In this document: in pieces, positions 4,846-42,804 of the stretch
How the letters are laid out: the number at the start of each line of letters is the position of its first letter
Position numbering within the stretch: position 1 is the stretch's first letter
DNA from: Clostridium sp.
GTDB taxonomy: Bacteria > Bacillota > Clostridia > Lachnospirales > Lachnospiraceae
Assembly (NCBI GenBank): GCA_023663815.1
Contig: JAMPGS010000010.1
Span: 1 to 43,436, forward strand
DNA: 43,436 bases
Reading direction: 5' to 3'
The notes under the pieces: generated by a model
What the model was told of the DNA's origin: nothing
The model's input: only the letters and a program-made list of their open reading frames with translations
Databases searched by the model: none
Position numbers and translations under genes: made by a program

Positions 4846-6255
4846 ATGAAATTAAATTACAGGAGAACATTTTTTATCGGGCTGGCGTTTTTATCTATCT
4901 CTGCTTTTTGGCAGATGTACGATAATATTATACCGCTTATTTTGCAGGGAACCTTCGGCGTTGGGGAAACGGTTACAGGCATGATTATGGCGGCGGACAA
5001 TGTGCTGGCCCTGTTTCTTTTGCCGCTGTTTGGCAGTTTGTCGGACAGGGCGGATACGAAGGCCGGGAAGAGGATGCCTTTTATTGTGGGGGGAACCCTG
5101 CTTGCGGTGGCGTTTTTGCTGTTGCTTCCCGTGGCGGATAAAAACGAGAATTTGATACTTTTTGTGGCGGGGCTGTTTGCCCTTTTAGTTTCCATGGGAC
5201 TGTACCGTTCCCCGGCGGTTGCGTTGATGCCGGATTTGACGCCCAACAAGCTGCGGAGTAAGGGAAACGCCGTCATTAACCTGATGGGGGCCGTGGGCGG
5301 CGTTTACACGCTGATTATGATAAAACTGCTTGTCGGCGGCGGGCAGCGGCCCGATTATATGCCGTTATTTATAAGCGTGGCGGCGTTGATGATTCTTTCG
5401 GTGGGGATTCTTGTTATTACCATCAATGAAAAAAAGGTCAAGGCGCAGGTGGAAGCGGAAATGAAAGCCTGCGGGGAGATGGAAGCAGAAACGAAAGCTT
5501 GCGGGGAGATAGAAGCGGAAACGAAAGCCTGCGGGGAGGTGGAAGCGGAAATGAAAGCTTGCGGCGAGATGGAAGCGGAAACGAAAGCCTGCGAGGAGAC
5601 AGAAATAGAAGCGGAGGCGGTCATAGAAGAAAAAACCGCTATGCCAAGGGAGGTAAAGCGAAGCATGATATTTCTTTTGGCGTCAATTTTCCTTTGGTTT
5701 ACGGCCTACAATGCGGTCACAACCGCTTTTTCCCGCTATACGAAGGTGGTTTGGAAGCTGGAGGGCGGCGGCTTTGCGGATTGCCTGATGGTTGCCACCG
5801 TGGCGGCAATTATCAGCTATATTCCTATTGGAAATATTGCAAGCAGAATCGGCAGGAAAAAGACGATTATGGGCGGGATTGTGCTTATGAGCGCATGCTA
5901 TTTGGCCGCCATTTTTGCAAACGCCTATCACCCGGCGATTAACATTGCCTTTGCGGCAATCGGCGTCGGCTGGGCGGCAATCAATGTGAATTCTTATCCG
6001 ATGATTGTGGAGATGGGCAGAGGCCGCGATATTGGGAAATTCACGGGAACCTACTACACCTTTTCCATGGCGGCGCAGATTTTTACTCCGGTGTTGTCCG
6101 GCTTTCTTCTGGAAAATATTTCCTACAGGACGCTGTTTCCCTATGCCTTTGTATTCTCCACGCTGGCCTTTTTCACTATGTGGCAGGTGCGTCACGGGGA
6201 CGTGAAGCCGGAAAAGAAAAAGAGTGTGCTGGAAAATTTTGATGTGGACGACTAA
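4846..6255 (+). CDS. MFS transporter (SLC45/GPH-like) with a repeat-expanded central loop
   Basis: Twelve-helix major facilitator of 469 residues. The first half has the hallmark loop LFGSLSDRADTKAGKRMP after helix 2 and resembles sugar-type SLC45/GPH carriers (N-terminal FWQMYDNIIPLIL). The second half repeats the theme at ASRIGRKKTIMGG. The cytoplasmic loop between helices 6 and 7 (about residues 202-251) is made of five 10-residue acidic units of the type EAETKACGEM, so each brings a Cys. Such a loop is dispensable in the fold and looks like tandem duplication. AGAGGG lies 7 bases before ATG 4846. The next gene starts 5 bases after the stop, suggesting an operon. Substrate unknown. Confidence 0.8.
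   Translation: MKLNYRRTFFIGLAFLSISAFWQMYDNIIPLILQGTFGVGETVTGMIMAADNVLALFLLPLFGSLSDRADTKAGKRMPFIVGGTLLAVAFLLLLPVADKNENLILFVAGLFALLVSMGLYRSPAVALMPDLTPNKLRSKGNAVINLMGAVGGVYTLIMIKLLVGGGQRPDYMPLFISVAALMILSVGILVITINEKKVKAQVEAEMKACGEMEAETKACGEIEAETKACGEVEAEMKACGEMEAETKACEETEIEAEAVIEEKTAMPREVKRSMIFLLASIFLWFTAYNAVTTAFSRYTKVVWKLEGGGFADCLMVATVAAIISYIPIGNIASRIGRKKTIMGGIVLMSACYLAAIFANAYHPAINIAFAAIGVGWAAINVNSYPMIVEMGRGRDIGKFTGTYYTFSMAAQIFTPVLSGFLLENISYRTLFPYAFVFSTLAFFTMWQVRHGDVKPEKKKSVLENFDVDD
5449..5598. repeat. 30-bp tandem repeat inside the MFS gene, five copies
   Basis: Units start at 5449, 5479, 5509, 5539 and 5569. Each encodes (V/M/I)EAE(M/T)KACGE. Differences are few and mostly in the first codon and in ATG versus ACG, which points to recent duplication. 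Confidence 0.92.
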
Positions 6256-32735: not shown

Positions 32736-32787
32736 ATGTAAGTGTGATGTGCAATTAATGTTGAATTGGAGCATTGCGCTACTGAAT

Positions 32788-32859
32788 GGCTCGTTGGTCA
32801 AGCGGTTAAGACGCCGCCCTCTCACGGCGGAAACAGGGGTTCGATTCCCCTACGAGCTG
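32788..32859 (+). tRNA. tRNA-Glu (anticodon CTC)
   Basis: 72 bases fold as a cloverleaf: acceptor GGCTCGT pairs with ACGAGCT (the first pair is G-T), the anticodon arm is CCGCC/GGCGG with loop CTCTCAC (anticodon CTC at 32821-32823), and the T arm is AGGGG-TTCGATT-CCCCT. Discriminator G at 32859; the CCA is not encoded. The AT-rich phage DNA begins right after it, so it probably served as the integration site. Confidence 0.93.
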
Positions 32860-32887
32860 TTATTTTAATTGAATAGCTTAACCCTTG

Positions 32888-32954: not shown

Positions 32955-33019
32955 GGCCGTTTTAGACCGTTTCAGACCGTTTCAGAACAAAGTGGTGTGG
33001 GTATTTTTGTGGGTATATG
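32955..33019. repeat. Direct repeats at the prophage left edge
   Basis: Three 10-base units (GGCCGTTTTA, GACCGTTTCA, GACCGTTTCA; 32955-32984) are followed by two 12-base units (TGTGGGTATTTT, TGTGGGTATATG; 32996-33019). They lie just past the tRNA and resemble recombinase arm-type sites or an att remnant. Confidence 0.55.
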
Positions 33020-33107
33020 GAAACCAATCAGAAGAAGGAATTCTAATTATTTAAAGTAAGTATAGAATTATAAGATTGTAAAATTGTTTTATATTTGTAT
33101 AGTTATT

Positions 33108-33121
33108 TTAAATAATAATTT
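33108..33121 (+). repeat. Inversion site S1
   Basis: TTAAATAATAATTT, followed by GACGCAG. Encodes Leu-Asn-Asn-Asn-Leu in frame with the cassette that follows. Confidence 0.75.
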
Positions 33122-33515
33122 GACGCAGTTAAAAGGCGGCGGGCAAATCATAGATTTTCATGTCGGTGACGATGGAAAACCTTATATTACATACGAGGCA
33201 GGTGCTGATACAGTCGTAAAAAAATTGGGTAGCGGCATTGATGCTGATTACTTGAATTCTCTTAACTGGATGTATACAGGGGCACAAGGTACTATTTCCG
33301 TCGAAAGTGGAAAAACCTATTTGATTTTTGCAGTATCTTCAGGTGCCGATCCGGCCTTTAAAAGTGGCGGTACAAGTTTGTTTTCATTTAGCGGCGGCGT
33401 GAGAGGATATTCCTTACGCCTTTATTTAATCAAAACCACTTCATCAACACTGCTTTTTGCCTCGCCTCCTGCGGGTGCCGACCATGACGAATTTATATAT
33501 ACAGTAATAGATTAA
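33108..33515 (+). CDS. Silent tail-fibre C-terminal cassette 1 (no start codon of its own)
   Basis: 135 codons open from the S1 site to TAA 33513. It reads NNNLTQLKGGGQIIDFHVGDDGKPYITYEAGADTVVKKLG, then a variable domain ending FASPPAGADHDEFIYTVID. The GADTV linker is shared with cassettes 2 and 3. An upstream in-frame TTG at 33084 has no ribosome site, so as placed it should not be translated. It would be expressed only if recombination joined S1 to the N-terminal segment at 36696-36917, giving a fibre of about 209 residues. The variable part probably forms the receptor-binding tip. Confidence 0.7.
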   Translation, partial: LNNNLTQLKGGGQIIDFHVGDDGKPYITYEAGADTVVKKLGSGIDADYLNSLNWMYTGAQGTISVESGKTYLIFAVSSGADPAFKSGGTSLFSFSGGVRGYSLRLYLIKTTSSTLLFASPPAGADHDEFIYTVID

Positions 33516-33517
33516 AT

Positions 33518-33901
33518 TTATTCAAAAAAGAGTATTGAAGCACTCTTATATGTACTAGTTCTCGACGCAATAAGAGTAGTTTTCTCAGTCCATGACACAA
33601 CATTAATGACATCATCATCGGTTTTAAATGTCACAGTGTCCCCTACCGCTCGAAGAATTCCTGACCGCTCGTTGATATTTTGGCCCATAACAAGCTCTGG
33701 TTCGCTAGAGATACAAACAATTGTAGTTGTCCCATCTGGGACGGAAACAATTTTAGACCTAGAATCAAAAAATATAAAACCAGTTAAATTTTGTCTGCTA
33801 AAAGGGAAAACTGTATCAGCACCTCCGGGAGTTTTATAGCCGGTTATTTTACCATCAGCGTCATAAACATACTCTGGCTGCTGCGCTAATTTATTATTTA
33901 A
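33518..33901 (-). CDS. Silent tail-fibre C-terminal cassette 2 (no start codon of its own)
   Basis: 127 codons open on the minus strand from site S2 to TAA 33518. It reads LNNKLAQQPEYVYDADGKITGYK, then TPGGADTVFPFSRQNLTGFIFFDSRS, and ends TSTYKSASILFFE. The first 35 codons are nearly identical in DNA to cassette 3; the remainder is unrelated. It is convergent with cassette 1 and their stops are 2 bases apart. A terminator separates it from the recombinase gene upstream, and it has no ribosome site, so it is silent as placed. Confidence 0.7.
   Translation of the reverse strand, partial: LNNKLAQQPEYVYDADGKITGYKTPGGADTVFPFSRQNLTGFIFFDSRSKIVSVPDGTTTIVCISSEPELVMGQNINERSGILRAVGDTVTFKTDDDVINVVSWTEKTTLIASRTSTYKSASILFFE
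33888..33901 (-). repeat. Inversion site S2
   Basis: On the minus strand TTAAATAATAAATT followed by AGCGCAG; one base differs from S3. Encodes Leu-Asn-Asn-Lys-Leu. TTTGAG lies just upstream, as it does before S4. Confidence 0.75.
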
Positions 33902-33913
33902 AGCTCAAAATCG

Positions 33914-33953
33914 TAAAAAAATAGGGACTGCCACTTAAAAGTAGTAGTCCCTA
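33914..33953 (-). terminator. Terminator after the recombinase gene
   Basis: TAGGGACT (33922-33929) pairs with AGTCCCTA (33946-33953); on the minus strand the stem is followed by seven T. It would stop recombinase transcripts before silent cassette 2. Confidence 0.8.
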
Positions 33954-33957
33954 AAAA

Positions 33958-34971
33958 TCACCCTGCATATACATTGTGTATATATGCTATTTTGTCATAA
34001 GACTTTGATAAATAATGCTTTTGTGTTGTTTCAAATGAAGCATGTCCTAAAATTTCTTGAATTATAGTTGGATCAACACTTTTCTTATTCAAATCACTTG
34101 CCAGCCATCGCCTAAAACAATGTACAGTAATGTTAGAAAGTCCTATTCTTTCACCAACAGTTCTAACTATCTTATTTATTGTTCCTGTACCCAATTTATG
34201 ATATGGCTTTTTATAAGTGCAAAAAAGATAATCGCTTATTTTTCCACGCTCTAATAGATATTCTTGTAAATGCTTTTTGCATCGCACTGTAAAGGGTACA
34301 ATTCTGTCTTTATCACCCTTACCATGTATGATTATCGTTCTTGATTCCCAATTGATTTCAGATAATAAAATATTGCTAACTTCACTTACTCTCAACCCAG
34401 AAGATATTAATAAATCAATTAATGCTAATTCGCGTTTATTCACACATGCATCTCTCATAGATTCAATTTCGAGATCAGTGTAAAATCGCTTATATTTCTT
34501 TCCCTCTTTTATTTTAGGAATTTTTTTAACAGGATTCTTAGGTATATATTCCTCGTTTTCCATAAATTGAAAAAACACATTTAAGTTTCTACGACAATTA
34601 TTAGCAGTTGCTTTACATACTGTCTTTTCATAACTTAAAAGAAATCTCCTGATATCATCTGTTGTTATATTCACTAAGTCTTTATTACAAAATTTTAATA
34701 AAGATGAGATACTGTAAATATATTGTTCTATGCTGCTATCTTTTATTCCTCCCATCTTTTTACATCCCATAAAATTTTTGATAATAGTTGGATTGTAGCT
34801 TTTGTCAACTGATAACATATTTTGTGAGGATACAAAATCTATACCAGCAAATACATTAGTAAGAATGTTGATGGATTTTTGCATTTGCAAATCACTAAAA
34901 TGCATTTCATCACCAATCATTCTTACCGTTACTTTAAATAAATAATCTTTGTCAATCTTTTGCACTGTCAT
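33958..34971 (-). CDS. Tyrosine recombinase, candidate tail-fibre invertase (Rci-like role)
   Basis: 337 residues. The N-terminal core-binding domain (about 55-160) includes QYIYSISSLLKFCNKDLVNITTDDIRRFL. The catalytic domain has Arg194 (SGLRVSEV), Lys in GKGDKDRIVPF, His284 and Arg287 (HCFRRW), His310 (LGHASFETTQ) and nucleophile Tyr320 (KHYLSK). All five key residues are present, so it should be active. I chose ATG 34971 because AAGGAGGC lies 8 bases upstream; the longer frame to 35082 has no such site. Lying between two pairs of convergent tail-fibre cassettes, it is inferred to invert them. It could instead be, or also be, the prophage integrase. Confidence 0.82.
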   Translation of the reverse strand: MTVQKIDKDYLFKVTVRMIGDEMHFSDLQMQKSINILTNVFAGIDFVSSQNMLSVDKSYNPTIIKNFMGCKKMGGIKDSSIEQYIYSISSLLKFCNKDLVNITTDDIRRFLLSYEKTVCKATANNCRRNLNVFFQFMENEEYIPKNPVKKIPKIKEGKKYKRFYTDLEIESMRDACVNKRELALIDLLISSGLRVSEVSNILLSEINWESRTIIIHGKGDKDRIVPFTVRCKKHLQEYLLERGKISDYLFCTYKKPYHKLGTGTINKIVRTVGERIGLSNITVHCFRRWLASDLNKKSVDPTIIQEILGHASFETTQKHYLSKSYDKIAYIHNVYAG

Positions 34972-35082
34972 ATTATAATAGCCTCCTTCATTGAATTTGT
35001 AGTAAATAATTCTTTTCATAATTAATATTCTATAAACGCTATGTATTTTTTTCGGATTTAAAATATTTACAGAAAATAACAT

Positions 35083-35173
35083 TATTTACTATATGTGTGT
35101 ATGTAAAGACCATTATAATACGAACATATATTCTAATCACAAGTCAATGTTAGACTAATTTACGACGATTTGA
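35083..35173. other. Gap upstream of the recombinase gene
   Basis: No gene. On the minus strand TATAAT (35112-35117) and TTGACT (35142-35147) occur, but the 24-base gap between them is too long for one promoter. Confidence 0.3.
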
Positions 35174-35878
35174 TTATGAAATATTACTATAATCAATTAG
35201 AATATTATCTAATTCGTCTTGTGTAATACATTTGTAAATGTTTTCCTCTACATGTTGCTGATAAGATACAAGAGGATATACATAAGTCTTGATTTCAAGT
35301 ATAAGTTGCAAAAATTCGTCTTCCGTCCATTCTTCACATGACTTGCCCGTCTCATTCCAAGTTAATTTCGCATTTGAATCTATTGATTTTTCAATTTGAT
35401 ATGTCATATATTGACTCATCATAAGATTCTGCTTATCACTTGTAACAGAGTAAACACCATTTTTGTTACCATGAGCAGTAGAATGAATTGGATTATTTTC
35501 TAAATACTCAGCAAGCATTATTTTTGACAAAGCTATTTTATTATTTTTATTCTGCTTAAATATCTCTTCAAGTTCTTCGGGGGTAGGTACATAAGGTTCT
35601 GGTTCTTCTGGCTCTATAACGATAGGAGGAACATATATACTGCCATTGTTGGATAATTCGATTAACATATTATTATCTTCATATGTTCTATATATAGTTG
35701 TATATGCTGTATAATTACCTTGTACAAGGCCATTATTTTCATTGAGCAATTCAAATCCATTAGTTAAAATATTCTGAGGCGGAATGGTTTCAGAAAAAGT
35801 AATTGTTATTATATTACCATGGACAGAAACATTTCCATTATAAACAGAAGGATAATTTAAAAAACGTATTTTTTCCAT
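35174..35878 (-). CDS. Phage tail-associated protein, unknown
   Basis: 234 residues. The N-terminal half is beta-rich (GNVSVHGNIITITFSETIPPQNILTNGFELLNENNG). A Pro/Glu hinge follows (VIEPEEPEPYVPTPEELEEIF). The C-terminal half is helical with LTWNETGKSCEEWTEDEFLQLILEIKTYVYPLVSYQQHVEE, similar to proteins encoded after tail fibres in Firmicute phages. A fibre-assembly or accessory role is inferred from position. CGAGGAAAAT precedes ATG 35878. It lies between the two cassette pairs, so an S1-S4 or S2-S3 inversion would flip it together with the recombinase and separate it from its normal upstream transcript. Confidence 0.6.
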   Translation of the reverse strand: MEKIRFLNYPSVYNGNVSVHGNIITITFSETIPPQNILTNGFELLNENNGLVQGNYTAYTTIYRTYEDNNMLIELSNNGSIYVPPIVIEPEEPEPYVPTPEELEEIFKQNKNNKIALSKIMLAEYLENNPIHSTAHGNKNGVYSVTSDKQNLMMSQYMTYQIEKSIDSNAKLTWNETGKSCEEWTEDEFLQLILEIKTYVYPLVSYQQHVEENIYKCITQDELDNILIDYSNIS

Positions 35879-35911
35879 TTTATTTTCCTCGTCTTTCTAT
35901 AAAAAATGAAA

Positions 35912-35934
35912 ACAGGAGAAAAAGATTCTCCTGT
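35912..35934 (-). terminator. Terminator between cassette pair 2 and the 35878 gene
   Basis: ACAGGAGAA (35912-35920) pairs with TTCTCCTGT (35926-35934); on the minus strand TTTTCATTTTTT follows. It isolates the 35878 gene from tail-fibre transcription. Confidence 0.75.
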
Positions 35935-35986
35935 CAGTAAAAGTTATAATTTTGTTGTTGTAATTTCGATAAAATAAGCAAGTTAA

Positions 35987-36000
35987 TTAAATAATAATTT
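35987..36000 (+). repeat. Inversion site S3
   Basis: TTAAATAATAATTT followed by AGCGCAG. Encodes Leu-Asn-Asn-Asn-Leu in frame with cassette 3. It faces S4 as an inverted copy 681 bases away. Confidence 0.78.
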
Positions 36001-36364
36001 AGCGCAGCAGCCAGAGTATGTTTATGATGCTGATGGTAAAATAACCGGCTATAAAACTCCCGGAGGTGCTGATACAGTCTTCCCTTTTAGCAATTACCAA
36101 ATAAAAAATTCTGAAATACTTTCATTTCCATCAACATCAACTGGAAGCACTAGAGGATATACAGTTACTTTTGACTTCCCTAATGGCGTGGATGGAATTG
36201 TTGGTATATTTGATACTAATGGGAACCCGGACATGTTTCTGGGTTCAAGTGCAGTATTGCATGGATTTGCAATTGATGGCAATACTGTAAACTTTAGCAT
36301 TTATCGAGCTGGAACTACTAATACAAATACGGGCAAGTTTGTTTTTAGGGTTATCGGGCACTGA
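35987..36364 (+). CDS. Silent tail-fibre C-terminal cassette 3 (no start codon of its own)
   Basis: 125 codons open from S3 to TGA 36362. It reads LNNNLAQQPEYVYDADGK, ITGYKTPGGADTVFPFSNYQ, then a beta-rich variable tip (GYTVTFDFPNGVDGIVGIF) ending FVFRVIGH. Its first 35 codons match cassette 2 almost exactly. Its stop and the stop of the active fibre gene on the other strand are one base apart. Inverting 35987-36694 would exchange it with the currently expressed tip and give a fibre of about 199 residues. Confidence 0.75.
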   Translation, partial: LNNNLAQQPEYVYDADGKITGYKTPGGADTVFPFSNYQIKNSEILSFPSTSTGSTRGYTVTFDFPNGVDGIVGIFDTNGNPDMFLGSSAVLHGFAIDGNTVNFSIYRAGTTNTNTGKFVFRVIGH

Positions 36365-36365
36365 T

Positions 36366-36917
36366 TTATCCAATACCATATATTGCAACTTTTATATTCC
36401 CATAACTTCCACTTGAATTTATAAGTTTGATAGATGTATCGGAAATATATTGTATATCGGCCTCATAATGAAATACTGAGCTTGCGTAATAGGCTAAAGA
36501 TACATGCGGTAACGATTTAAATATACCAACTGGCATCATAAAACTATCAACAGCACGATAGTTTTCATTAATAGCCGAAAAGTATCCTAAAAGGTGCTTA
36601 TAACTACTTATATCTTTTACTTCAACCGTTAAATTGCTCCCTTTATTAACTACAGTGTCAGTTAATAATTCATACCTACTTAAATTATTATTTACCAGAC
36701 TCAAAGCCTTAGCAGAAGCAGCAATATTAGATGAAGTGCTCACCAAACTATCTGTAATTCCGTCAATAGCGCCTACTTTTGTTTCTGCGGTTTTACCGTC
36801 ATCAAATTCACAATCACTTGCCTTATGCCAGAAAGAAATTCTCTGCCATTTTTTGTTTACCACATCAATTAGTTTTCTAAATTTTCTACCAGTTACAATT
36901 TCTTCATTAACTGCCAT
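36366..36917 (-). CDS. Expressed tail-fibre gene with switchable C-terminus
   Basis: 183 residues. The constant part is residues 1-74 (MAVNEEIVTGRKFRKLIDVVNKKWQRISFWHKASDCEF onward to the helical DSLVSTSSNIAASAKAL). Site S4 encodes VNNNL at 75-79. The variable tip is residues 80-183 (SRYELLTDTVVNKG; SYKHLLGYFSAINENYRAVDSF; ending KVAIYGIG). The present tip lacks the GADTV linker found in the three silent cassettes. ATG 36917 has AAAGGAGT 9 bases upstream. Position at the end of the tail genes and the beta-rich tips suggest host-receptor binding; that is inference. Confidence 0.75.
   Translation of the reverse strand: MAVNEEIVTGRKFRKLIDVVNKKWQRISFWHKASDCEFDDGKTAETKVGAIDGITDSLVSTSSNIAASAKALSLVNNNLSRYELLTDTVVNKGSNLTVEVKDISSYKHLLGYFSAINENYRAVDSFMMPVGIFKSLPHVSLAYYASSVFHYEADIQYISDTSIKLINSSGSYGNIKVAIYGIG
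36681..36694 (-). repeat. Inversion site S4 (in the expressed gene)
   Basis: On the minus strand TAAATAATAATTTA preceded by G. Shares TAAATAATAATTT with S1 and S3. Its 3' flank AGTAGG differs from the GCGCAG of the others. Confidence 0.75.
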
Positions 36918-36996: not shown

Positions 36997-37458
36997 TTAA
37001 ATCCATATTGTACTTTCGTCCGCGCCGGGAGGCTCAGCTTCTTCACCCGTAAAAGTACAGACATTTTCTATGGATTCTTCTTCGTCATTATCTGAAAATA
37101 ATGAGATATCTGCTAAATTTTCCTCATCCTCAGTATCATTAAAAATATGAAGCTCGTCTATGGGATAATATACTTCTTCATCATAATAAATAAATGGCTG
37201 CTTTTTTGGAGGCTTCTTTAACAAATATTCTTGCAAAGTATAAATGCGGTTTTCTATAAGATTCAAAAAATCGGCGAAAAATCCATAAACATTTTCCTGC
37301 TGATTAATGTAGTCGCTTGCTTCGCTATATTTACCCTGTGTAATTAAAGCATTGTAATGATTTATGATTTCTATTTTTTCAAGGTTATTGTCTTGGAAAA
37401 AGGTCATTTCATCAATTTTATTTGGATAGTATGATACTGAATTACATAACAATATCAA
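36997..37458 (-). CDS. Phage tail-region protein, unknown
   Basis: 153 residues, not recognised. The first half is helical (NNLEKIEIINHYNALITQGKYSEASDYINQQ; FLNLIENRIYTLQEYLLKK), the second half is acidic and disordered-looking (DTEDEENLADISLFSDNDEEESIE) and ends STIWI. It resembles the preceding 110-residue protein in its I-N-x-L-x-x-x-G-x-Y-x-x-A pattern, so the two may be diverged duplicates. The start is uncertain: TTG 37458 touches the upstream stop, while TTG 37452 has better spacing from GGAGGTGA. Confidence 0.6.
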   Translation of the reverse strand: MILLCNSVSYYPNKIDEMTFFQDNNLEKIEIINHYNALITQGKYSEASDYINQQENVYGFFADFLNLIENRIYTLQEYLLKKPPKKQPFIYYDEEVYYPIDELHIFNDTEDEENLADISLFSDNDEEESIENVCTFTGEEAEPPGADESTIWI

Positions 37459-37787
37459 TCACCTCCAACCCATATGTCACCTTCAATACAATCAGCATCC
37501 TCCTCAGAATCATCGAAATATATAGATTGTTGTTTTTGTCTTGCATATATTTGAGTATTATAAATTTCTTCTTCCCATGTGCGGAAAGTAATTGCGTCTA
37601 CAATATAATGTGAAAGCACATCAAAATTCTGTTGCACAATGCGTGTTGCTTGGTTATATAATCCTTGTAGACGCAATTCATTAATTTGATTGATTATAGA
37701 TGCAATAGTATCGTCTACATTTTTAAAATCATGCCTGACAATCTTTTTTTCGGGGAAACAACTAAATTCCCGTTCAAAATCTGCCAT
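37455..37787 (-). CDS. Small phage tail-region protein, unknown
   Basis: 110 residues. A helical N-terminus (DDTIASIINQINELRLQGLYNQATRIVQQNF) is followed by an acidic C-terminus ending CIEGDIWVGGD. The last codons GGA-GGT-GAT double as the ribosome site of the next gene, indicating translational coupling. ATG 37787 has AAAGGAGGGAAACA upstream. Function unknown. Confidence 0.65.
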   Translation of the reverse strand: MADFEREFSCFPEKKIVRHDFKNVDDTIASIINQINELRLQGLYNQATRIVQQNFDVLSHYIVDAITFRTWEEEIYNTQIYARQKQQSIYFDDSEEDADCIEGDIWVGGD

Positions 37788-37802
37788 AATTGTTTCCCTC
37801 CT

Positions 37803-38864
37803 TTAATTTCCTATCCATGTCATTCCATCGGTTAAGTCCGTAGGCTCTGCATTACTATATTTAATTCCATCGCCCCCAGAAGGCGTAGCCCAAGTTCCGT
37901 CACTTCTTAAGTATTTAGAAGTACTACCATCTCTTTTAGGGCATAGGCCGTTTGCAGTAGTGGATACTACATCATAAACAGTATTAGCGTCGTCCCTCCA
38001 TGCGGGGTTCCCGTTAGCATCTGTTTTCCATACTTTGTTTGCTTGATTTTGGCCGGAAGAAACATAACCTTCACTGGAAGACGTATTTGCTTTCCAAGTA
38101 TTTGTGTTTGCAGACGGCGGTGTGTATCCTAAAGCGGCAGTGACATTTTCCTTGGTTATTTCTTCCCGGATAGCTGCAGAAGATTTATTCTCCACATTGC
38201 CTAATCCAATGTCATTTTTGGTTAAAGAAGCAATCATTTCTTTTAAAATCCTGCCTTGATTAGCTGACAATGGCTTATTTGTCAAAGTGGAAGTAAGATT
38301 ATCAATAATATCCGATACATTTACCTTACTTGTTGTAATGCCATCTATTAAATCTTTATTATTTTTAATGTAGGCAACAATTTCACTCAACTGGTCAAGA
38401 GTAATATCATCGCTATCTGCCAAAGCGTTTAATCTTGCAGTAAGACCAGAAATTAAATCACGTATATCACTATGAGCGGATATAGATATATCATGGTTAG
38501 ATATGGATAAATCTATTGCATTTTGCTGCGCAGTAGAAACAGGTTTGTCAATGTCGGCTGTATTATCAACATTGCCTAAACCTAATTGCTCGGAGGTTAC
38601 CTTGTGAGGATTTAATTCATTTGCGATATGTTCAGATAAGTTTTTTTGGATATGATTTTCTACTGCAGTAGCTCTTGATGTTTCAGAATTTAATGATTCT
38701 TTTGTTGCAAGTAAGTCATCTTGGCTTTGATTTTTTATATCTATTCGATTTAACGCAGAATCTATTAAATCCATGTTTGTGTTAAAAATATGTATATTGT
38801 ACTTCTCCTCAGAAGTCGGTTTTTGAAGAGAATATATTGAACTATAATTGATATTTACCACCAC
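37803..38864 (-). CDS. Phage tail fibre / appendage protein
   Basis: 353 residues. A long helical N-terminus leads to the fibre motif HKVTSEQLGLGNVDNTADIDKPVSTAQQNAI, a second GLGNVENKSS and ALGYTPPSA, all common in trimeric tail fibres. The C-terminus reads YLRSDGTWATPSGGDG and ends DGMTWIGN. The start is GTG 38864 (the first of two GTG codons), close behind the baseplate gene. It probably forms the main shaft, and the shorter switchable protein may be a tip or second fibre. No inversion site occurs in it. Confidence 0.75.
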   Translation of the reverse strand: MVVNINYSSIYSLQKPTSEEKYNIHIFNTNMDLIDSALNRIDIKNQSQDDLLATKESLNSETSRATAVENHIQKNLSEHIANELNPHKVTSEQLGLGNVDNTADIDKPVSTAQQNAIDLSISNHDISISAHSDIRDLISGLTARLNALADSDDITLDQLSEIVAYIKNNKDLIDGITTSKVNVSDIIDNLTSTLTNKPLSANQGRILKEMIASLTKNDIGLGNVENKSSAAIREEITKENVTAALGYTPPSANTNTWKANTSSSEGYVSSGQNQANKVWKTDANGNPAWRDDANTVYDVVSTTANGLCPKRDGSTSKYLRSDGTWATPSGGDGIKYSNAEPTDLTDGMTWIGN

Positions 38865-38872
38865 CTGTCATT

Positions 38873-40642
38873 TTATAATTCCTCTCCGCTAATAACAGTA
38901 GCAAGTTCTTCATGAGTATATTTACTGAGAACACCATGACTAAATTCAGACAATGCCTTATGAGTACCGGCTTCTTTAAGCAGCATTTCATACAATGGAT
39001 AAAAACGGTACATGGTGATTGTTGTTGTGAATCCAGAAAAGTCGTGGGATATTGAAGAAATTATGTATTGGTGTTCCCTATCGGAATCACTTCGCCTGTA
39101 AGACACCTTTTTGTTTACATCAAGAAACGGCAGGAGAGCAGTAGTAATTGTAATATTATCTGTCAATCTACAGTTCTTCCAATTTTCCCATTTTGCCCGG
39201 TCTGCCGCTAAATCATCTGAAGTAATATTTTCAAATTCCCCGCTTATTTTTATATCAGGAATTTCCCCTAGCTTTTCTATTGTGAATGGCGAATTAGCTA
39301 TAATCGTAAAATCAACACGTTCACAATTATAAAATTTTTTAAAGTATTCTTTAGAATATAATTCATATTCTTCACCGTCAGAGCTTGTTACAAATTTGCC
39401 GCTTTTCTTTCCATTAGTTAAAACATTTATGGCGTGTACCTGCCATTGCCCTAATAAATATGCTTTGATTACATCTTGCTTATCAACGCGCTTTTTCTTG
39501 ATTTTGAAAGCGTATACATTATTTGCTTTTAGTTCCCCGGCTTTAATCGGTTCCTCATTCGCTTCGTTATATATCCCAATAGAGCCAAAACCATTTATGT
39601 TTATCTGTGCGCCTGCTTGATTAGCAGCAGGAATTTTCAAACCAATAGAATCACCGTTAAAGTAGTCATCCTCGTATCCAGCGATGGTAGCAGTATAGGT
39701 ATTATCAGCATAAGAACATTCTTCACTATAGAAATCTACTTCTATGACCTTTCCCCATACTTCACAGATATTTCGCACAGTAGTCATGTCCACAGAAGTA
39801 TTTTCAGAGATTAAAACTTTTTGTATAAAAGCATTATCTAAAAAAATATCATCCTCATAGCACATGGGTTTTAACTGGCATATGAAAGTATTATTTTCCA
39901 TATCAAAAAACATTTCATAATTAGGGTATAAATCACGAAAAGTTGTTAAGATAGAAAGAACGCTGCACCCAGCGGAGAATTCCTGATCAAAAGGAATCGT
40001 ATTCCATATATTTACATTTTCCTCGCGGTACTTTTCCCATTCATCATTATATTCTGGGATTCCTTTATATTCACCAATATCATCAACCCTATGATTTGTT
40101 ATCCGTGCTAATTTTTCTAAGGTTTCAATAACTGCATTTCTGATAATATTGTACTCAATAGGCTCTCCGGTTTCTTCATTTTCCTTATAAGCTGGATAAC
40201 TAATAATTAATGCGCCTAATTGCCCATTTTTTGTGCCGTCTAATTTTTTCATAAAATCAGCACAGTTAATAGTTAAACTGTTAGTAGCAGCATCATAAGT
40301 GCCCGACGTATCAGTATAAACATAATATCCAAGAGGATAATATTTATATTGTTTTGTTCTGCAATTGTATAATCCGATGAACATTCGTAAATCTTTATTA
40401 AGCCATAACAAACTATCTTCAGTAAGCTTTAAATGTTCTGTTAATGTTGGCTGTACAACAATATTCGCAGTACGCCTTATATCGGATTCACTATTTATAG
40501 ACATACTGCCGCTTACAACCCCGTAAATTGTTCCTATTATTTTTCCGGCAGAATCTAATACTTCAACTTTTAAATCAAGTTTTGGAGATGCAGATTGAGA
40601 AAGTACAAGTATTAAATCTTCCTGCGTAATAATATCGGCCAT
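38873..40642 (-). CDS. Phage baseplate/tail-hub protein (DUF5048-like)
   Basis: 589 residues. The N-terminus (KLDLKVEVLDSAGKIIGTIYGVVSGSMSINSESDIRRTANIVVQP) and the C-terminus (HQYIISSISHDFSGFTTTITMYRFYPLYE) match Firmicute phage proteins at the baseplate-hub position. The middle has INCADFMKKLDGTKNG and a long region of unknown fold. I chose ATG 40642, which overlaps the upstream stop as TAATG with GGTGGA 7 bases before; a frame from 40657 is also open. Function by family position only. Confidence 0.7.
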   Translation of the reverse strand: MADIITQEDLILVLSQSASPKLDLKVEVLDSAGKIIGTIYGVVSGSMSINSESDIRRTANIVVQPTLTEHLKLTEDSLLWLNKDLRMFIGLYNCRTKQYKYYPLGYYVYTDTSGTYDAATNSLTINCADFMKKLDGTKNGQLGALIISYPAYKENEETGEPIEYNIIRNAVIETLEKLARITNHRVDDIGEYKGIPEYNDEWEKYREENVNIWNTIPFDQEFSAGCSVLSILTTFRDLYPNYEMFFDMENNTFICQLKPMCYEDDIFLDNAFIQKVLISENTSVDMTTVRNICEVWGKVIEVDFYSEECSYADNTYTATIAGYEDDYFNGDSIGLKIPAANQAGAQININGFGSIGIYNEANEEPIKAGELKANNVYAFKIKKKRVDKQDVIKAYLLGQWQVHAINVLTNGKKSGKFVTSSDGEEYELYSKEYFKKFYNCERVDFTIIANSPFTIEKLGEIPDIKISGEFENITSDDLAADRAKWENWKNCRLTDNITITTALLPFLDVNKKVSYRRSDSDREHQYIISSISHDFSGFTTTITMYRFYPLYEMLLKEAGTHKALSEFSHGVLSKYTHEELATVISGEEL

Positions 40643-41571
40643 TATTGATTCCACCATTCTGGCGATACGTCGGATAGCCCTAAATAGTATAAATCTTCCT
40701 CTGAATTGACATCTCCAATTTCAACCCAAGACCATGTTATTTCACGATTGTTATACATCTGATTTGCAGTATCTGTAGGATTAGGCGTTACCTGTACGAT
40801 CCACATCCTTCCATCAGGCAATTTTAGAATTTTCGGAACACCGTCAGAAATAAAATCCATAAATCCTTTTTGATATTGAATACGCTGATAATCATACTGT
40901 TCATTAAAAGCCAATTCACAGCTTTCCTCGTCTACCAAGGGGACAAAAGAACCTTTACAATTTCCAGTGTCGTAATTTGCAATAGTGTTTCTCACGAAAA
41001 TAGGGTATTTACTATTTAATAATTCAACAGTAGAAGAGGGGATATTGCGTGTTGTGTCGCAAAACCCGTCTGTAATATCCGTTCCCCACACCACGTCGTT
41101 TTCAATCAAAAACATTTTGCTGAATTTCGGCGTTATTTTGGTTGTAGAATAATTTCCCTCAGACCCATTTAAGACGTTTACTACTGCATATTCAACAGTC
41201 TGCCCAGACGCAATAAAATAGTCGGGGTAATTAATAATAAAATCATCAATGGTATTTACTTCTTTAACGGCTATCGTCTTCCACTGGAATTCGCCATCAC
41301 TCCTGCTTTTTAGGATAATATGGGAAGTGGTTTCCAAAGTCCAATCTACATTACCTGCATTTGCATCCCCATTAAATTTAGCCCATAACACTGTGTCAAA
41401 ATCCCATTCGTCGGGACATTGGTTTGTCAATTCAAAATTAGTTGCATTGGATATATATAAATCATCATATATTCCATTTTTTAATTCAACGTAATTAATA
41501 TTATCAATATTTGTCGGAGTGATAGCGCACGCTAATGCGCCCCCAACAAAATTGCTTCCACATATAAACAT
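40642..41571 (-). CDS. Phage tail protein, distal-tail-like
   Basis: 309 residues, not firmly recognised. The start is cysteine- and glycine-rich (MFICGSNFVGGALACAITPTN), the middle has WDFDTVLWAKFNGDANAGN, which resembles ligand-binding tail modules, and the end has ILKLPDGRMWIVQVTPNPTDTANQ, typical of phage proteins replaced in tail assembly. GGAGGTGATTAA of the upstream gene provides its ribosome site. Placed between a tail fibre-like protein and the baseplate gene. Confidence 0.6.
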   Translation of the reverse strand: MFICGSNFVGGALACAITPTNIDNINYVELKNGIYDDLYISNATNFELTNQCPDEWDFDTVLWAKFNGDANAGNVDWTLETTSHIILKSRSDGEFQWKTIAVKEVNTIDDFIINYPDYFIASGQTVEYAVVNVLNGSEGNYSTTKITPKFSKMFLIENDVVWGTDITDGFCDTTRNIPSSTVELLNSKYPIFVRNTIANYDTGNCKGSFVPLVDEESCELAFNEQYDYQRIQYQKGFMDFISDGVPKILKLPDGRMWIVQVTPNPTDTANQMYNNREITWSWVEIGDVNSEEDLYYLGLSDVSPEWWNQ

Positions 41572-41576
41572 GCGCG

Positions 41577-42804
41577 TTAATCACCTCCAAGCCATATGTC
41601 GTTTAATGTTACTTCTAGCGGTTCAGACTTATCTAAAAATGTTGAAAAATTATCTTTGTTTACAACATAAATATTACCGTCGGTATCAATCCATTTATCG
41701 TATTGTTCGGATACTTTTGGGTTAGGCCGTTGTGTTCCGTACCACATATTACCATCTGGGGAAAATCCTAGCTCGACAAAGACTTTTAATTGATATATGT
41801 TATTTTTCCTTCGGATAGCAATAGTAATCATATCTTCATTTTCAAATACCTGCTCCTCGGAATATAACAGATAACTATTTACGCCATTAGGCACAACCAA
41901 TTTAAAACGTAATTTTCCTCCGCTGTAAATGTGGGAACTTAATGTTAATCCTAGATTTCCATTGCTCATTTTAAGTAAATCGGCATTTTGCCAAAGGTTT
42001 ATCCCCCGGATTAACACCGTAAAATCATCTTCAATTAAAAATCCTTCGTCGTAGTATATTGTCTTGTCACGTAAATCAATCATACCGTCTGGGTATTCAA
42101 AAGTGTCGGTTCCATTATATTGGATTATTATAAGATTAGTTGCAACCTGCACGCAGCCCTGTGATGGGATAGCAGTACTATAGATTCTTGAATAGGCATT
42201 GGGATTTTCATACTTGACTGTAATTTCAACAAAGCCAGTATCTAATTCCATTCCATTAACAGTTACGCCAATACACCTAATATAATAGACCGTATTGTTT
42301 TCAAGCCCACGGTATGTATAGCTGATATCAAAAGAATCAGTGAGAGAATTGCTTTCTAATAATTGTTTTTTAGTGGAATCATACAAATAGAATTTATAAG
42401 TGCTGATATCTTCCCAGTCAGACGAGTAATAATAAATAGAAACTGCAAATGAAGCGTTTGTTATTTTCCCATTTTCGGGAATATTATTGAAATAAAAATC
42501 GGGTGTTTCAAAGGTATAAAATAAAACTTTATCCGATAATGGCGATGCTATATTTTCAACGTCATAGGTTTGGGATTGTATAACATATTTTTTGCCGTTG
42601 CTTAATGTATAAGCTGGTATTGTGTGCTTTAATGCAAATGTGGATACCGTATCATCAAATACAAGCTTATTTGTCTCGTTATCATATATTAAAATCCTAT
42701 TTGCATGGGCGCGGTTGCCAGTCCATGAAAGAGCTATTTCATAATCTTTATTTGCATCAAAAGGAGTTATTTTCTTTATAATTGGTTTTGCTATTTTTTA
42801 TCAC
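41577..42804 (-). CDS. Phage tail protein with fibronectin-like repeats; apparent frameshift near start
   Basis: Open for 406 codons from 42797 to 41577, but with no ATG, GTG or TTG before 42386. A GTG at 42804 with GAGG 6 bases upstream starts in another frame and meets a stop after 15 codons. A run of six A at 42794-42799 lies between; one A less would join the GTG to the long frame, giving about 408 residues. The N-terminal part (KPIIKKITPFDANKDYEIALSWTGNRAHANRILIYD) looks like a fibronectin-III strand pattern; a second follows at SYTYRGLENNTVYYIRCIGVTVNG. It ends NDIWLGGD. Sequencing error, true mutation and slippage are all possible. Confidence 0.6.

Follow-up and report, generated by a model that had tools for sequence, protein, structure and literature searches.

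A candidate four-tip tail-fiber shufflon arranged around a tyrosine recombinase in a Lachnospiraceae genome

Why would one stretch of bacterial DNA keep a tail-fiber gene next to three silent alternatives for its C-terminal end, all placed around a recombinase gene? The arrangement occupies positions 33108-36917 of contig JAMPGS010000010.1 from a Clostridium sp. of the Lachnospiraceae (assembly GCA_023663815.1, 214 contigs). The window, meaning the whole stretch of 43,436 nucleotides (nt) that was analyzed, is G000:C11:1-43436 in our numbering. The original prediction had proposed a shufflon-like switch of fiber tips operated by a tyrosine recombinase, and it is supported by the reading frames, by a plan conserved at related loci, and by rearranged cassettes at distant ones. 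We conclude that the locus is a four-cassette shufflon whose recombinase very probably flips DNA, inverting copies of a 14-bp site to swap tips (probability about 0.88).

The site, TAAATAATAATTTA, has four copies in the window, the only matches at up to one mismatch: S1 (33109-33122, + strand), S2 (33887-33900, - strand), S3 (35988-36001, + strand), and S4 (36681-36694, - strand), the last within the fiber gene. Against these four copies, 100 dinucleotide shuffles gave a mean of 0.17 and never four (0/100), an expectation formed after the fact, as the pattern was derived from the same four sites. The frames that follow the sites are stronger evidence than their number. All are open in the phase that encodes LNNNL, for 109 codons at S4, 125 at S3, 127 at S2, and 135 at S1, and the other two phases are open for 0-1 codons. 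Four cassettes thus begin at one site in one reading frame, and they form two tail-to-tail pairs around the recombinase, with stops 1 base apart for S3/S4 and 2 bases apart for S1/S2; both features had been predicted.

The expressed member is a fiber gene of 183 residues (36366..36917, - strand), currently fused to tip S4, with the ribosome-site sequence GAAAGGAG ahead of its ATG. Residues 1-74 (36696-36917) are constant, and adding the four tips to them gives the anticipated fibers of 183, 199, 201, and 209 residues. Silent cassettes S3 (35987..36364, + strand), which lies tail to tail with the fiber gene, and S2 (33518..33901, - strand) are start-less as first described, with no in-frame ATG, GTG, or TTG upstream. 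For S1 (33108..33515, + strand) the description nearly holds: a TTG stands 8 codons upstream, without a recognizable ribosome site.

The enzyme between the pairs (33958..34971, - strand) is a PF00589 tyrosine recombinase (E 2.6e-30). Its open frame reaches 35082, but because the ribosome site GAAGGAGG stands before an ATG at 34971, the protein probably has 337 rather than 374 amino acids. The expectation that all catalytic residues are present was borne out: R231, H321, R324, and H347 (374-residue numbering) are identical in all seven aligned recombinases, and Y357 in six of them, the tyrosine of L045 lying one column earlier. A match to NF040815 (XerA-like) falls below the cut-off (194.9 vs 220 bits). 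With at least three inverted sites heading C-termini in one phase, and an intact recombinase adjacent, the locus has the makeup of a multi-site tail-fiber shufflon.

How would such a locus work? The recombinase would exchange strands between inverted copies of the LNNNL-coding site. Inversion between S3 and S4, or between S1 and S4, would join a different tip to the constant 74 residues. Inverting S1-S2 would exchange the outer tip next in line, and inverting S2-S3 would flip the central segment, which holds the recombinase gene together with an accessory tail gene. The claim that each inversion fuses a different tip therefore stands for the first two pairs only, since the other two leave the expressed tip unchanged, and just two other tips are a single inversion away. 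S2 and S4 share an orientation, and direct recombination between these two would remove the recombinase gene. A clonal population could in this way make tail particles bearing as many as four different tips. We infer activity of the recombinase in the window genome, a receptor-binding role for the tips, and a gain from switching targets. The host-range switching named in the original prediction would be a further, putative consequence.

Do relatives carry the same device? A scan of genome contigs identified seven recombinase loci, five of them at 70-87% identity. L009 (recombinase 87% identical) has the same plan with four different tips; L010 (78%) has three sites and a reversed recombinase; L012 (72%) has seven sites. 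The contig of L011 ends inside an apparent cassette, and L013 retains only a 168-residue C-terminal part of the recombinase. The recombinase opposes the fiber gene in G003/L010 and is co-directional with it in the window, L009, and L012. The constant fiber part has 67% identity to its L009 counterpart and 77% to that of G003 (Lachnospiraceae 10-1), and among viral contigs it matched a single one, which represents the same region as G003. Searches with DNA from 35174-36917 found no match among 50,697 phage records, and the exact S3 site plus linker had no match in viral contigs. The IMG/VR relative L043 ends where a shufflon would begin, a contig end that would fit a mixed state. Overall, related loci carry 2 to 7 tips and occur in Lachnospiraceae and viral contigs. 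At L012:7122-11086 we also observed six silent cassettes whose order is less regular than the four-site plan.

Frames were counted at the window, L009, L010, and L012, which have close recombinases and enough flanking DNA. Every one of their 18 sites heads an LNxNL-phase frame 90-141 codons long; at none of them does either of the other phases exceed 20 codons. When the 18 sites are aligned, TAAA.A...A.TT(A) is kept, the middle is locus specific, and the flanks are not conserved; kept ends with a variable middle are expected if a protein binds the ends and the middles of partners must match.

These counts bear on whether homologous recombination, rather than a site-specific enzyme, drives rearrangement. 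A potential substrate exists: S2 and S3 share a 106-nt inverted repeat with 97% identity that starts at the site (33796..33901, - strand, at the site-proximal end of S2, and 35987-36092 at S3) and stops after GADTVFPFS. In addition, PMC7096588 mentions rarer hsdS inversions independent of PsrA. However, S3 and S4, the pair that changes the tip, have just 14 nt in common, and the 18 sites head their frames despite tips that are mostly unlike one another. We give homologous recombination as the driver only a very slim chance. The same 106-nt length recurs in two element groups: it is shared between 33796-33901 and 35987-36092 in the window and between L070:5047-5152 and L071:768-873, and the tips diverge just after GADT..PFS. 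Such shared cassette heads suggest that homologous recombination within the linker exchanges tips.

Could the enzyme simply be the integrase of the element, with repeats that are incidental or left by cassette duplication? PHROGs labels it an integrase, and a tRNA or tmRNA lies near the element end in the window, L011, L012, and L013. Yet these neighbors are of different kinds (Glu, Leu, Met/Val, and tmRNA) despite the 70-74% identity of the L011, L012, and L013 recombinases to that of the window, and TAAATAATAATTTA is found only at the four cassettes and is absent at the tRNA. Moreover, L070, with a 50% identical recombinase beside a fiber gene, has a separate integrase-like gene on its contig (Pfam match at the cut-off), and in Terrisporobacter phage TPELB_ph1 (33% identical) two further genes carry an integrase annotation. 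We consider an integrase role with incidental repeats highly improbable.

The question of whether cassettes actually move is addressed by three IMG/VR viral contigs, one of which (L110) adjoins baseplate J and Mu gp48 genes. The slot order is A, B, recombinase, C, E in L107; B, A, recombinase, C, D in L110; and D, C, recombinase, A, B in L111. Between loci the cassettes are 99.3-99.7% (A), 99.7-100% (B), 98.5% (D), and 81.5-88.5% (C) identical, and the borders of exchanged blocks fall within a few bases of the sites. L107 can be converted to L110 by one inversion of the A-B pair, and L110 to L111 by at least two inversions. Cassettes that recur in other slots amount to natural evidence of inversion. 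Comparing cassette order among relatives, as the original prediction proposed, showed alternative orders at loci whose recombinases are 33-35% identical to that of the window. Carrying inversion over from these loci to the window would rest on the shared plan and the broad family.

Several observations weigh against an active shufflon in the window. The direct evidence of rearrangement comes from those distant recombinases, and altered orders are seen at related loci and not in the one assembly of the window genome. Sites S1 and S2 have one mismatch each. These last two points would also suit a locked, decayed array, a former shufflon whose silent cassettes are now pseudogenes; against decay, none of the four tip frames is interrupted before its tail-to-tail stop, the recombinase gene has a complete frame, and all four sites keep one middle, TAATAA. 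We judge such a decayed array very unlikely. Also unfavorable to an active shufflon is a freer scan (any middle, one mismatch allowed in the site ends, 4.5 kb per side), in which the shuffled AT-rich stretch gave a mean of 1.35 and a maximum of 3 sites vs 4 real ones; at L009 the shuffles likewise reached 3 vs 4. Across the four close loci, an in-frame start codon lies 6-50 codons ahead of 5 of the 14 silent cassettes. Few genomes have the recombinase: with a threshold of E <= 1e-80 it appeared in 1 of 397 sampled family genomes (this one), among candidates scored, and in 2 of 37 genomes of the genus. In L107 the recombinase region is 79-82% identical (DNA) to L108, L110, and L111, and the A-B block is 99.7% identical to L110, a mismatch which implies that cassettes also move between elements, mixed with inversion. 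L070 and L071, tried as a further inversion pair, were rejected; their shared sequence is confined to the initial 106 nt of a cassette.

How far does the recombinase family extend? A profile scan of viral contigs identified 62 loci. HsdS-like frames, screened with seeds taken from the loci themselves, are present at 17 of the 62 (at L095, 1.8 kb away); 12 (L066-L072 and L107-L111) are tail-fiber loci by our reading, and the remaining 33 are unclassified. Pfam confirmed HsdS in the three loci tested (PF01420 in L076, L085, and L088), and among plasmids, close matches from Ligilactobacillus cover genes annotated as a recombinase beside a restriction subunit S. Scanning 72 loci for sites gave 35 candidates with both orientations, 20 with at least three sites, and 13 that were kept. 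Those dropped were L066 (the same DNA as L010), L083 (contig end, with as many sites in shuffles), and L091, L095, L098, L102, and L116 (shuffles equal or higher). In the 13 kept loci, HsdS loci included, 37 of 55 sites are followed by at least 70 codons in the LNxNL phase; the other phases give 1 and 0. The site form TAAAYNNNAATTTA, in the LNxNL phase, is present in all nine kept HsdS loci (at most one mismatch in the ends), and eight of the nine have the plan +, -, recombinase, +, -.

Three HsdS-side enzymes compared with that of the window are 32-38% identical to it. A quick tree was built from 51 of the 72 recombinases, leaving out 21 duplicates, fragments, and weak hits. HsdS-associated recombinases form one group (18 members, support 88) with the window enzyme outside it, and tail-fiber recombinases form two, that of the window (8 members plus L067, support 100) and L107-L111 (support 100); deeper joins are unsure, given long branches. 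L067, labeled 'other' in the tree, has a recombinase 52% identical to that of the window, inverted sites at 5146 and 5686 with GACAGTTTA, and a fiber plus one silent tip.

Is the kind of system new? The original prediction invoked the R64 PilV shufflon with Rci. R64 works alike, with multiple inverted sites and swapped C-terminal adhesin tips, but the window locus is no member of that system: the R64 site is CCGGATTGGCAC, in seven copies, and serves a pilus, in contrast to TAAATAATAATTTA among tail genes. Kinship of the enzymes is unsupported (blastp E 0.9 over 48 residues, not significant); the R64 enzyme used (record L129, 'site-specific integrase') we take to be Rci, given that it stands next to PilV. 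Carotovoricin tailocins undergo fiber inversion, and this inversion, like those of Gin, Cin, and Min, uses serine recombinases. The window resembles these systems in the switching of phage tail fibers (Gin/Cin/Min are named in PMC6109161, and PMC13195805 deals with carotovoricin tailocins), but its PF00589 tyrosine recombinase is unlike the serine recombinases of Gin and Cin.

Tail shufflons run by a tyrosine recombinase have a published precedent, the Rin shufflon of Bifidobacterium prophages (Mavrich et al. 2018, PMC6109161). Rin shares with the window a tyrosine recombinase, several C-terminal tips per receptor-binding protein, and short asymmetric sites, and its inversions were detected in reads. 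As described there, it is set apart by its rix site, TTCCCTAACCC, and by cassettes between the constant gene and the recombinase; the window has TAAATAATAATTTA sites, and its recombinase lies with a tail gene between two tail-to-tail pairs. HsdS genes are inverted by tyrosine recombinases such as PsrA (PMC7096588 and PMC4948785), and the HsdS-side enzymes are of the same broad family as the window recombinase. Their cargo is a DNA-recognition domain and that of the window a tail-fiber tip. A shufflon of tail tips is therefore a known kind, and as far as the literature searched goes (the inversion survey of Milman et al. 2023, NAR, was outside it), the recombinase lineage, the site form common with HsdS, and the plan are new. 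The search found no paper on invertible phage tail-like elements in Lachnospiraceae.

What element carries the locus? Beside the recombinase, in the central segment, is the accessory gene (35174..35878, - strand), tail-fiber-like by its match to phrog_1348 (E 5e-8). It has no Pfam match and weak relatives in L009 and L011, and, like the recombinase, it runs in the direction of the fiber gene. Upstream are co-directional genes (36997..42386, - strand) at 36997, 37455, 37803, 38873, 40642, and 41577, with homologues in the same order in G003. The gene at 37803 matches the PF22337 fiber repeat and that at 38873 matches phrog_1887 (tail protein, DUF5048); the others had no match to a family of known function. 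The gene listed as 41577-42386 seems to extend upstream to an ATA at about 42794, where its L043 homologue begins with TTG. On the other side, a tRNA-Glu(CTC) (32787..32860, + strand), with its 3' end toward the element, is probably the attachment side. Between it and S1, at 32960-33020, are short direct repeats, GACCGTTTCAGA and TGTGGGTAT, which in our estimation resemble integrase arm sites.

The original prediction took the element for a prophage, here a putative one: the window contig ends at 43436 in tail genes, and the window genome had no match to the RNA polymerase, 267-residue structural protein, or tape measure of its relatives. In G003 and G037 a tail cluster ends with the shufflon. 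The clusters contain a sigma-like gene whose matches fall below Pfam cut-offs, a GH25 lysozyme, tail-tip genes, a long gene resembling a tape measure (PHROG match weak or absent), and an RNA-dependent RNA polymerase (RdRP)-family protein (PF05183 above cut-off, phrog_8308). No terminase or portal was recognized among the frames scanned, which are part of the total. This suggests clusters of the tailocin type (tail and lysis without head genes), with one contrary label, a G037 protein matching phrog_2729, a family in the head-and-packaging category of PHROGs. In G003 we also noted, by eye, a prophage-like stretch on the other strand (G003:C1:496015-536791). It has a serine recombinase (PF00239) and interrupts the tail cluster, with the tape-measure-like gene on one side and the tail tip on the other.

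Proteins of phrog_8308, presumably a YonO-like RNA polymerase, lie upstream of clusters ending in or at the shufflon at G003:C1:482437-484839, G037:C1:1440307-1442988, and G041:C1:14760-17330; the G041 contig, which ends at the shufflon, also has a tape-measure relative. The family also matches in a Bacillus subtilis control. The distribution of phrog_8308 speaks against a general link. Four of the seven genomes or records searched had it; G000, G039 (the genome of the closest relative), and G040 had none, and in G038 it is on contigs other than that of the recombinase. A broader idea is that the recombinase and its LNxNL-coding 14-bp site are a portable tip-swapping module common to unrelated HsdS and tail fibers, which in some Lachnospiraceae sits on headless tail clusters with their own YonO/RdRP-like RNA polymerase and yields tailocins of inversion-switched target range. 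We offer this tentatively, and would expect it to fail somewhat sooner than to hold.

The locus adds a compact tail-fiber shufflon, present in Lachnospiraceae and viral contigs, whose recombinase kin adjoin HsdS genes. One short site, coding for the same five-residue linker, serves fiber tips and DNA-recognition domains, which makes the two comparable as components of a single exchange mechanism. Should the tail clusters prove headless, the locus would belong to a tailocin with a tyrosine-recombinase switch.

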